In this document: one piece after another, positions 44,280 through 60,565 of the stretch | Layout: each line of letters begins with the position of its first letter | How positions within the stretch are numbered: position 1 is the stretch's first letter | Source of the DNA: Geobacter sp. | Lineage (GTDB): Bacteria > Desulfobacterota > Desulfuromonadia > Geobacterales > Pseudopelobacteraceae | DNA: 64,000 bases | Direction: 5' to 3' | Assembly: GCA_025360785.1 (NCBI GenBank) | Contig: JANYBN010000210.1 | Coordinates: forward strand, 1-64,000 | Notes under the pieces: generated by a model | The model's database searches: none | Told to the model about the DNA's origin: nothing | The model's input: the letters and a program-made list of their open reading frames with translations, nothing else | Program-made: the position numbers and the translations under genes

Positions 44280-44936
44280 ATGGTAAGCAGCGTAGGAACA
44301 ACATCAGCCGACACAAGCGTAGCTGCAGCAGCCATGAAGCAAAGTACTGGGCTCAACAAAGATGATTTTCTCAAGCTTTTTGTCGCCCAACTCAAGAATC
44401 AGGATCCACTCAATCCCCAGGACAGTTCGGCGTTTGTCACGCAATTAGCCCAGTTGACTCAGGTTGAGCAGGCCTACAACACAAACACCAACCTGCAAAA
44501 TCTGGTCAGTACCGTCAAAGGGACTTCATCGCTAAACGTATCATCCATGATTGGCAGAAACGTCACGGCTGAAGGAAACAAAGTGAATTTCAATGGCACG
44601 GCAACTAAACTCAACTATAATTTGCCGGCAGCAACAAATTCGACCACTGTAACAATAACCGACGGCACCGGAAATACGGTGCGCACAATCAATCTGGGGG
44701 CCAATTCAAACGGTCTCAATTCAATAGCGTGGGATGGCAAAAACAATTCCGGTGCGCTCCTTTCTTCCGGGATTTATAATTTTGCCGTTGCGGGCAAGGC
44801 TTCTGACGGCAGCGCAATTACCGGAACAACCTTTACAAGTGGCAAGATTGATGGCATCGCATTCAACGGCACAGATCCAGTTATCAAAATTGGAAACATC
44901 GAAATACCGGTTTCTGCACTTGCCACAATATCCTGA
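44280..44936 (+). CDS. flgD: Flagellar hook assembly protein FlgD
   Basis: LNKDDFLKLFVAQLKNQDPLNPQDSSAFVTQLAQLTQVEQ. Confidence 0.95.
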   Translation: MVSSVGTTSADTSVAAAAMKQSTGLNKDDFLKLFVAQLKNQDPLNPQDSSAFVTQLAQLTQVEQAYNTNTNLQNLVSTVKGTSSLNVSSMIGRNVTAEGNKVNFNGTATKLNYNLPAATNSTTVTITDGTGNTVRTINLGANSNGLNSIAWDGKNNSGALLSSGIYNFAVAGKASDGSAITGTTFTSGKIDGIAFNGTDPVIKIGNIEIPVSALATIS

Positions 44937-44980: not shown

Positions 44981-45038
44981 CGCAACAGGCTGGCCCTCCG
45001 AGAGGAAGCCTGTGAATACCGACCGACTGAGGTATTCT
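44981..45038 (+). other. Putative structured leader element, copy A (upstream of hook-like gene)
   Basis: Hairpin 1 ACAGGCT-GGC-CCTC-CGA-GAGG-A-AGCCTGT; hairpin 2 GAATACC-GACCGACTGA-GGTATTC; paralogous to 46321-46380. Confidence 0.55.
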
Positions 45039-45065
45039 AAAAAAAACCCTTTAGGGGAGGCGCAC

Positions 45066-45857
45066 ATGGGCTTTTCATCCGCGATGATGTCCGGTGTAAG
45101 TGGACTTCAGAGCAATGCCGACGCGATCAGCGTTATCGGCAACAATATTGCCAATGTCAATACTGTTGGTTTCAAGTCCGGCCGGACACTTTTCAGCGAT
45201 TTGCTCTCCGAAACAGCAGCAGCCAAGGACTCACAGGTTGGACTTGGTGTTCAGATCGCCGCCATTGAAAATCAGTTTTCACAAGGAACCCTTACTAATT
45301 CAGTAAATGCTACAGACATTGCAATCAACGGCAATGGATTTTTTATCGTGCAGGATAGTTCCTCAACTCCCTCTACGTACTACACTCGCGCCGGCGCCTT
45401 TAATCCTGACGATAAAAGTACGTATCTTGTTAACCCGGATGGGGCAAAGCTGTGCGATTCTGCAGGCGCACCGATCAATCTCACCACGTTTGCGAACTTC
45501 TCAAGTATCAAAAACATCAGCCCGGATGGAACAATAAGCTATCTTGACACCAATGGTTCTCAGCAAGTATCGGCGACCAAGATCGGTATAGCCTCGTTCA
45601 TAAATCCGACCGGGCTGGAAAAGGCTGGCGGCAGCCTTTATCGTGCCGATTTGGGCACGGAAGGCTCCGGTGCTGCGGTTATTGCTGAGCCTGACCAGGA
45701 TAATGCTATTCATTCCTTCTCACTCGAGGAAAGCAATGTGGACATGGCAAAACAGATGGTCAACTTGATCACCACGCAACGTGCATATTCTGCAAATTCT
45801 AAGACCATCATGACAAGCGACGAGATGACCAAGACGGTTATTAATCTTAAACGATAA
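45066..45857 (+). CDS. Short flagellar hook/hook-basal body protein (FlgE/FlgF-type)
   Basis: MGFSSAMMSGVSGLQSNADAISVIGNNIANVNTVGFKSGRTLFSDLL, C-terminal ESNVDMAKQMVNLITTQRAYSANSKTI. Confidence 0.88.
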   Translation: MGFSSAMMSGVSGLQSNADAISVIGNNIANVNTVGFKSGRTLFSDLLSETAAAKDSQVGLGVQIAAIENQFSQGTLTNSVNATDIAINGNGFFIVQDSSSTPSTYYTRAGAFNPDDKSTYLVNPDGAKLCDSAGAPINLTTFANFSSIKNISPDGTISYLDTNGSQQVSATKIGIASFINPTGLEKAGGSLYRADLGTEGSGAAVIAEPDQDNAIHSFSLEESNVDMAKQMVNLITTQRAYSANSKTIMTSDEMTKTVINLKR

Positions 45858-45915
45858 TCAGGTCGTTTGTTCCAGCAATTCCGTAATCAAATAAATCAAG
45901 GGGGGTGATGTTTGA

Positions 45916-46314
45916 GTGTCGGATAATATATATTTTCCAAATCCTGTCGTCGTCAATCCGGATCGGCAGCAGATAAAACAGCCGCTTCAAAACGTGCGCA
46001 AACCGGATGGCAAGCCATCTGCATTCGATAAAATACTTGGTCAACAGCTACCGTCATCGGAAGGCCTGAAGTTTTCCCAGCATGCCCAAGACAGGTTGCG
46101 CTCACGCGGTATCACAATCAATGCGGCAGAAATGGGTCTACTAAACTCTGCTGTCAATGATGTTGCACAGAAGGGTGGCAAGGAATCCCTGATTATGATG
46201 GGTGACGCAGCCTTTGTGGTGAGTGTCAAAAACCGGACTGTTGTCACCGCCATGGATCGAAGCCAGATGCAAGGCAACGTATTTACCAACATAGATTCAG
46301 CAGTAATTATTTAA
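45916..46314 (+). CDS. Flagellar operon protein (TIGR02530-like)
   Basis: GLKFSQHAQDRLRSRGITINAAEM...GGKESLIMMGDAAFVVSVKNRTVVTAMD. Confidence 0.75.
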   Translation: MSDNIYFPNPVVVNPDRQQIKQPLQNVRKPDGKPSAFDKILGQQLPSSEGLKFSQHAQDRLRSRGITINAAEMGLLNSAVNDVAQKGGKESLIMMGDAAFVVSVKNRTVVTAMDRSQMQGNVFTNIDSAVII

Positions 46315-46320
46315 ACGTAT

Positions 46321-46380
46321 CGCAATGGGCTGGACCTCCTTGAGGAAGCCCATGGTATGCCGACCGATAGAGGCATTCCA
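46321..46380 (+). other. Putative structured leader element, copy B (upstream of flgE)
   Basis: Hairpin 1 ATGGGCT-GGA-CCTC-CTT-GAGG-A-AGCCCAT; hairpin 2 GGTATGCC-GACCGATAGA-GGCATTCC; compensatory changes relative to copy A. Confidence 0.55.
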
Positions 46381-46421: not shown

Positions 46422-48365
46422 ATGAGTTTAGCAAGCGCAATGAATGTAGGCGTAACCGGTCTTGGAACAAACGCAGAAGCAATATCAGTTGTCGGCAATA
46501 ACATCGCCAACGTCAATACCGTCGGATTTAAGGAAGGCAGAACCATCTTCTCCGACATGTTGTCAGCAAACATCGGCGTCGGGCAGGTTGGCCGTGGCGG
46601 ACAAATACAGGCCGTCCAGAACATGTTTTCCCAGGGCAGCACAGAAAACACCAGCGGTGATAACGACCTGATGATTCAGGGGGAATCATTTTTTGTTGTG
46701 CAGAACAGTGTGGGGACACAATCCTTCACCCGCGCAGGGGCATTTGACTATAACAAGAGTCAAGTGTTGGTTAATCCCGATGGAATGGAAGTATTAGGTT
46801 ACGGCATAACTCAGGCTACCGGCTTATCGAACGGCGTAACAGGCAAAATTGATAAAACCGCCTTTGCAACGCTCGCTCCGAAAACTACCACCTCAGCCAG
46901 TTTCGTGATGAACCTCGATTCAACCGCCAATGCTCCAGGCAGCTCCGTGACCAGCTCAATCCGGGTGGCCGGAGATTTTGGTGCTGCTGCTGCTCCGGCG
47001 GTTACGGCAGCAACATTTTATGATGAATTCGGGAATGCCCAGACTGCAAATATTACCTGGGCACTTCCCGCTGTAGCTGTGCCTCCTTCCAATAATGCTT
47101 ACACCTATTCTATCGCCATTCCCAATGCAACTGCGGGAACCCCCGGCAGCGCCGGCTTTCCGATTACGGGGACGTTAAATTTCCCGACGCCGACGACCAC
47201 TTCGGTCAGCACGACAGTTACACTTAATAATGGCGCCAAACCAATGCCGGTAACATTTGACCTGACGAATATGAAGAATTCCGCAGTAACTACCGCCCCA
47301 ACTATTACGGCCAACGGCGCTCCCATAAAGACAGCGAATGTTGTCTTTAGCGGCGGTACGGCCGCTGGCACGGGAACATTCACAGATACAGCCGGAGTCG
47401 CCTACACCACGGCGATGACCTTTCCGACTCCCACAACCTGGCAGTATGTTATCTCTGATGCGACACCTGCTGTAGTATCAACCATCACCGGAAACTTTGC
47501 CAGCGCAACCAACGGCAAATCCACCTGGGATCAGAGCAGCAGCACCGTCACCATCAACGGCGTATCCCAGCCGGTGATGTTCGACCTGAGCAATGTCACC
47601 ACCGGTGCTACCGCTGTCGCCGTTCGCACCAATGGCTGGGACAAGACCGACCCGGCTGTCACTTCAAACTTTTCGAACAGTACACAGGTCTACGACTCAC
47701 AGGGGAACGCCCATAACGCCACAGTTTACTATAACAAAACCGGCGCCAATACTTGGGACTATCACCTGTCTGTGCCTGATGCCACTTCGATCAACGGAAT
47801 GGCCGGAAATAACGTCCTTAACGGCACCTTGACGTTTGACTCGGCTGGGGTACTCGTCAACCAGATACCTTCCAACGTAAACGGACTCACGGTACAGTTC
47901 CCGGGCAGCGTCGCGTCACAAACCCTCACGCTGGATTTTAATCCAAATGTGTCTACACAGCTGGCCAGTAATTCGGTTGTGTCGTCTCAGAACCAGAATG
48001 GTTATGGCGCTGGAAATCTTATCTCCACCAAGATCGATGACCAGGGCTATGTGAATGCCAGCTATACCAACAATCAGACCCAGCGCATCGCCTTGGTTGC
48101 ACTGGCCAAGTTTGCTTCGGTGGCAGGACTTGAAAAAGCAGGTAGTTCGCTCTTTAATTCAACCGCCAAATCCGGATCGGCTATCATCGGAACGGCTCAA
48201 TTGCAGGGGAGCACGATTTTCACCAAATCACTCGAACAAAGCAACGTCGATATGGCCACGCAGCTTGTCAGCATGATCAAACTGCAACGCGCCTATTCGG
48301 GCAACTCCAAAACCATCACCTCATCAGACGAAATGATGCAGGAGACGTTGAGCCTCAAGCGATAA
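46422..48365 (+). CDS. flgE: Flagellar hook protein FlgE
   Basis: MNVGVTGLGTNAEAISVVGNNIANVNTVGFKEGRTIFSDML, C-terminal EQSNVDMATQLVSMIKLQRAYSGNSKTI. Confidence 0.94.
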   Translation: MSLASAMNVGVTGLGTNAEAISVVGNNIANVNTVGFKEGRTIFSDMLSANIGVGQVGRGGQIQAVQNMFSQGSTENTSGDNDLMIQGESFFVVQNSVGTQSFTRAGAFDYNKSQVLVNPDGMEVLGYGITQATGLSNGVTGKIDKTAFATLAPKTTTSASFVMNLDSTANAPGSSVTSSIRVAGDFGAAAAPAVTAATFYDEFGNAQTANITWALPAVAVPPSNNAYTYSIAIPNATAGTPGSAGFPITGTLNFPTPTTTSVSTTVTLNNGAKPMPVTFDLTNMKNSAVTTAPTITANGAPIKTANVVFSGGTAAGTGTFTDTAGVAYTTAMTFPTPTTWQYVISDATPAVVSTITGNFASATNGKSTWDQSSSTVTINGVSQPVMFDLSNVTTGATAVAVRTNGWDKTDPAVTSNFSNSTQVYDSQGNAHNATVYYNKTGANTWDYHLSVPDATSINGMAGNNVLNGTLTFDSAGVLVNQIPSNVNGLTVQFPGSVASQTLTLDFNPNVSTQLASNSVVSSQNQNGYGAGNLISTKIDDQGYVNASYTNNQTQRIALVALAKFASVAGLEKAGSSLFNSTAKSGSAIIGTAQLQGSTIFTKSLEQSNVDMATQLVSMIKLQRAYSGNSKTITSSDEMMQETLSLKR

Positions 48366-60422: not shown

Positions 60423-60565
60423 GCTAATATAACCGACTTAATGCTGCTGTTTTGGCCATGAAAGGGGGCGCCACCACGGAAGGGCCATTGTAGCAAGCGT
60501 GTAGAAAGTAATCCAACGGGCGGCAGAATGCCGTACCGAAAAAACCAGAAAGGAAGTACATTACC

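Follow-up and report, generated by a model that had tools for sequence, protein, structure and literature searches.

A two-hairpin element in the leaders of two hook genes

Why does the same two-hairpin sequence stand before two neighboring hook genes, and what might read it? The question is raised by a stretch of 64,000 nucleotides from a Geobacter sp. contig, here called the window, in which the hook cap gene flgD (44280..44936) is immediately followed by one copy of the element (copy A, 44981-45038), a short gene for a hook-like protein of 263 amino acids assigned to the FlgEFG family TIGR03506 (45066..45857), a gene for a flagellar protein of 132 amino acids in the TIGR02530/PF12611 family (45916..46314; TIGR02530 E 4e-34), the other copy of the element (copy B, 46321-46380), and flgE for the hook protein of 647 amino acids (46422..48365), with all genes on the forward strand. 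The original prediction placed a two-hairpin structure at both of these sites, and direct reading of the sequence recovers both, copy A 28 nt before the ATG at 45066 and copy B 42 nt before the ATG at 46422.

Hairpin I of copy A (44985..45013, forward strand) consists of the outer stem ACAGGCT/AGCCTGT, an internal loop with GGC opposite A, and the inner stem CCTC/GAGG, and is followed by hairpin II (45014..45037, forward strand) with the stem GAATACC/GGTATTC and the loop GACCGACTGA. The corresponding hairpin I of copy B (46325..46353, forward strand) has the outer stem ATGGGCT/AGCCCAT, GGA opposite A, and the same inner stem CCTC/GAGG, and its hairpin II (46354..46379, forward strand) pairs ATGCC with GGCAT, plus an outer GG/CC, around the loop GACCGATAGA. 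Three base pairs are altered on both sides between the copies, as had been claimed, and the predicted minimum-energy folds of A and B are identical to the drawn hairpins, with z-scores of -3.9 and -3.0, respectively, against dinucleotide shuffles. A faint echo of the element had also been suspected in the flagellin leader at 60518-60538; a search of 501 bases gave it 0.7 bits (E 0.87), which does not support the idea. No third copy was found when the window was searched for one.

The element is present in several phyla

A covariance model built from copies A and B only, R1, was searched against 57 relatives, a check proposed at the outset. Homologs were identified in 42 of them, with best E-values per genome ranging from 9e-21 to 8e-4 and with six of the nine genera of the order represented, so the element extends far beyond chance. 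Two loci (L073 and L074) were rejected as false positives of this model.

A degenerate pattern with about 24 specified bases, for which less than one chance match is estimated in 257 Gb, matched 107 stretches in a search of 84,980 species genomes. The matches belonged to Desulfuromonadales, Brevibacillus, Paenibacillus, Cohnella, Rossellomorea, several Clostridia, Bdellovibrionaceae, Cloacimonadota, Omnitrophota, Armatimonadetes, and Tectomicrobia. The element is thus present in several phyla, about seven, including Bacillota, where 198 of 300 genomes carry it, many with two copies. In the search of the window's own phylum, matches to the model R2 with E-values of 3e-4 to 0.05 were counted as noise, and three of them were below 1e-3, slightly above expectation. 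One contig labelled Streptomyces griseus (L094, from a metagenome-assembled genome) contained the element within a flagellar operon resembling that of Bdellovibrio, and this bin is probably mislabelled or contaminated.

The suggestion that the element was kept after a hook gene duplication was too narrow. The extra copy in the window does accompany a local duplicate of a hook-like gene, but the element, spread over several phyla, did not originate in that duplication.

Stems turn over and unpaired nucleotides are conserved

We aligned 78 copies from several phyla, in which the named structure is paired in 93% of cells. Nine pairs and 117 cells were changed on both sides, compared to 39+-5 in shuffled alignments and at most 17 when the partners were slid. 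Another 41 matches to R2, which lay outside model building and were mostly second Bacillota copies, largely flgG leaders, contained 118 doubly changed cells versus 37+-7 expected, and the inner stem of hairpin I covaried here as well. Both alignments were fitted to the structure of the model itself, which biases them in favor of that structure, but given so large an effect and the result of the slid controls, the bias is unlikely to be the cause of the covariation. Covarying secondary structure, one of the general features of a cis-regulatory RNA leader, is accordingly present, the predicted selection on RNA structure is borne out across phyla, and it is near certain that the element is a structured RNA.

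The GG of the internal loop in hairpin I and the fixed positions of the GANCGANNGA loop in hairpin II were invariant, or almost so, across phyla. Since the stems turn over while these unpaired nucleotides are retained, the pattern is that of a recognition site on a scaffold. In another family within the phylum (f29; L280:1376-1442 and L279:1721-1788), the loop of hairpin I is longer, and the TIGR02530 protein is also long, with a frame of 210-371 amino acids.

The element precedes genes for axial proteins

With the exception of class II, described below, nearly all copies found with the pattern were located shortly upstream of the start of a FlgE-like gene. The distance to flgE is nearly always 30-75 nt, with a median of 39 nt from the loop of hairpin II to the start codon. 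An automatic motif test placed 119 of 146 distinct judgeable copies before an axial gene, and most of the remainder belonged to the EF-hand-associated class or had been missed by the test. At the other end, the element often begins 0-30 nt after the upstream stop codon, with a median of 12 nt from the stop of the TIGR02530 gene. Many genomes of Clostridia have a second copy ahead of flgG, which encodes the distal rod protein, and most of the second Bacillota copies that were fetched have this position, often beginning at the stop codon of a flgF-like gene (FlgG and FlgF at these loci were named by eye from the sequence). FlgG is a homolog of FlgE, and both are axial proteins that are exported. 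A constant position 5' of one gene class, the other general feature of cis-regulatory leaders, is also found. In an Armatimonadetes metagenome-assembled genome, the element (L173:7056-7118) lies before a gene other than flgE, about 2.4 kb ahead of the TIGR02530 gene.

Two simple switches were considered and rejected. Hairpin I of copy B contains ACCTCCTT, which could act as an anti-Shine-Dalgarno sequence. However, the inner stem is variable, being CCGC, CTGC, CCCT, and others elsewhere, and CCTCC occurs in only 62 of 147 copies, so such a switch is not general. The Shine-Dalgarno sequence itself lies outside the element, which neither contains nor occludes it. An intrinsic terminator or attenuator was likewise rejected, as a run of 5 T within 15 nt after the hairpin was seen in just 3 of 147 copies.

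Divergent copies

By context, the R1 matches fell mainly into two classes: copies immediately before flgE (class I), and copies of the window's genus that are flanked by genes for EF-hand and small proteins (class II). R1 also identified a third, class II copy in the source genome (element L011:1259-1320; locus L041:634-2359, minus strand, C184), flanked by genes for a protein of 337 amino acids with five EF hands and a protein of 173 amino acids (MSISAISAGSTSQ...) with no Pfam match. This arrangement of EF-hand gene, element, and small-protein gene was repeated in several relatives. A distal conserved segment of class II, CAGCCTGCTTCTCATGG, could form a stem with CCATGA...GCAGGCTG, where the element begins. 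This stem excludes hairpin I, and these copies may possibly act as a bistable switch (L042, L047, L049, L052, L054, L055, L057, L059, L060, L062-L065, L068, and L069). At three of these loci (L047, L057, and L069), a strong hairpin follows and no gene start is nearby, as if they were free RNAs. A third, more diverged group comprised the copies at L031, L070, and L072, of which those at L031 and L072 precede genes for small proteins (MSVTAILPSN... and MSISSVTSAN...).

Co-occurrence with TIGR02530

The gene upstream of the flgE copy is almost always a TIGR02530 (PF12611) gene. Among 247 genomes of the window's phylum, the element model (E<1e-8) and PF12611 picked the identical 11 genomes (p=2e-19), and all 31 motif-bearing genomes outside Desulfuromonadales carried PF12611. 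In the 300 Bacillota genomes, both were present in 190 and neither in 83, with PF12611 only in 19 and the element model only in 8. Five of these 8 had weak model matches; the 3 with strong matches gave two clear hits to the full TIGR02530 model (E 1.5e-25 and 1.5e-13) and a marginal, partial one (0.048) near a contig end. As for the 19 genomes with PF12611 only, the element was detected by the model at E<0.005 directly 3' of the TIGR02530 gene in 9, and a diverged form, GGGGGATGGACC...GGAGGTCCCCC with a TGACYGACAGA loop, was seen by eye in another 6. About 4 of the 209 PF12611-bearing Bacillota genomes thus had no recognizable element, and 3 of these (L300, L304, and L306) also have a diverged TIGR02530 sequence. 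In one genome (L285, G269), the element remains with flgE at about 470 nt from the PF12611 match.

Adjacency alone cannot account for the association, because the flgG copies lie far from the TIGR02530 gene. A common operon cassette, or a type of flagellum specific to certain lineages, could also produce the co-occurrence, and TIGR02530 could instead have a role in structure or export. That TIGR02530 is the partner of the element is a well supported conclusion that we infer from these patterns.

Residues S, H, A, R, K, G, T, T, I, and D, with S54, H56, R60, K86, and T111 among them, are invariant in the 31 TIGR02530 sequences, and an AlphaFold2 model predicts a compact domain (pLDDT 90) with the order beta-alpha-alpha-beta-beta-beta. 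The DUF4258 profile produced weak, sub-threshold matches in 24 of the 31 members (E 7e-4 at best, below the cut-off), and a profile search of the PDB returned only designed or helical proteins. All Foldseek matches to the model had E>0.2, with TM scores up to 0.44 (YafQ/HP0894/colicin E5). The best small-domain matches, colicin E5, CdiA-NC101, YafQ, and HP0894, all with non-significant E>0.4, have the folds of RNA-cutting toxins. Since these RelE/colicin-E5-type matches are non-significant, an RNA-binding or RNA-cutting role for TIGR02530, as hinted at by the predicted structure, is a lead and not a result.

A putative protein-binding leader and its alternatives

We favor, with moderate confidence, the reading that the element is a protein-binding leader, most likely read by TIGR02530, that controls the synthesis of FlgE and FlgG post-transcriptionally. 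Each copy would be a cis-acting RNA within an axial gene's leader; flgE is the target in every lineage seen, and many Clostridia have flgG as an additional one. The recognition site would consist of the unpaired GG (opposite A) of hairpin I and GANCGANNGA of hairpin II, with the stems serving only as a scaffold. Encoded just upstream in the same operon, TIGR02530 would bind the element there, and in trans at flgG, and might adjust the translation or the processing and stability of the message for the hook, and for the distal rod, for example so that the synthesis of axial subunits is matched to assembly. A more specific version, in which TIGR02530 is possibly a site-specific endoribonuclease or a RelE/colicin-E5-type translational repressor and forms with the leader an ancient RNA-protein checkpoint for hook and distal-rod synthesis in several phyla, is put forward tentatively.

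Part of the same evidence would suit an intercistronic structure that raises the amount of flgE (and flgG) message over that of the neighboring genes in the operon through processing or stabilization by general RNases, with TIGR02530 as a mere neighbor in the cassette. The site within the operon, close behind the upstream stop codon, and the scarcity of terminator-like U-runs agree with this, as does the location ahead of the hook and distal rod proteins, the most abundant axial subunits of their operons. General stabilizers, however, need no invariant loops, and the unpaired nucleotides are invariant across phyla; the near-perfect co-occurrence with TIGR02530, distant flgG copies included, also asks for a specific partner, and we regard this explanation as unlikely. 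Invariant loops in a leader ahead of motility genes would equally be expected of a small-molecule riboswitch, for c-di-GMP for instance, that controls hook synthesis. Yet there is no recognizable expression platform, with the Shine-Dalgarno sequence outside the element and no terminator, no Rfam riboswitch family matches, GEMM-I included, and the element is nearly confined to two homologous structural genes and one protein family rather than to varied pathway genes, which makes a riboswitch improbable.

We give a similarly low probability to a targeting signal that would take the messages for axial subunits to the type III exporter of the flagellum, where translation and secretion would be coupled. 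The element does precede rod- and hook-type export substrates, and the class II neighbors, the EF-hand and small proteins, appear by eye to have export-like N-termini, but within the window it was not seen at the flagellin or hook-cap genes. Finally, 2 nearby copies could have been a promoter or transcription-factor palindrome, or the remnant of a recent duplication. Such a DNA site or chance origin is contradicted by the compensatory changes across phyla and fits poorly with the mid-operon position and the strand-specific, asymmetric internal loop, and we consider it highly improbable.

Comparison with known systems

The two-hairpin leader of the hook genes is apparently previously undescribed. 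A match to a known family would have removed its novelty, but no Rfam family matched the window at the gathering score, the 1.5-kb region at E-values up to 5, or eight element loci from other phyla. The GEMM-I c-di-GMP riboswitch is a two-hairpin RNA upstream of motility genes, and the element shares this form and location; it differs in that neither GEMM-I nor any other Rfam riboswitch model matched it at any threshold tried, in line with the original prediction that it is not GEMM-I. The motifs described by Weinberg and colleagues in 2017 are reportedly included in Rfam, and no publication describing the element was found in the searchable literature. The absence from Rfam, the covariation, and the placement before flgE and flgG together strongly support the predicted conserved structured leader, with a presumed role in hook synthesis and possibly protein binding.

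The nearest described RNA by name and type of location is the Termite-flg motif, to judge by its name a structured RNA before flagellar genes. Its model (RF01729, 106 positions) gave no match of at least 40 bits at the element in its own genome, in the window, or in 36 element-bearing genomes, among which there were no spirochaetes, and membership in this family was rejected; the two RNAs may be distantly related. The Termite-flg motif has been described as probably cis-regulatory, not a riboswitch, and restricted to the termite hindgut (Weinberg et al. 2010; PMC2864571).

The control of flagellar assembly is a textbook subject, and yet an RNA at the hook genes of about two thirds of the sampled Bacillota has no Rfam entry. 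TIGR02530, a family without known function, gains a testable role, and a further question is how the synthesis of hook and rod is matched to assembly in bacteria that lack the Salmonella scheme. The nearest functional analog of the element and TIGR02530 is FlbT at the flagellin leader of Caulobacter (PMC3930126), which differs in its target, flagellin, in its protein family, and in its host, with no homology of RNA or protein shown to the hook-leader system. According to the title of a study by Lee and Hughes (2006, cited in PMC4230889), Salmonella FlgE is under posttranscriptional control. The element differs by eye from the GGA-loop site of CsrA, its conserved unpaired positions being GG/A and GANCGANNGA, but it resembles both CsrA-FliW at flagellin and the Salmonella FlgE case in that the putative control of axial subunits would be post-transcriptional.
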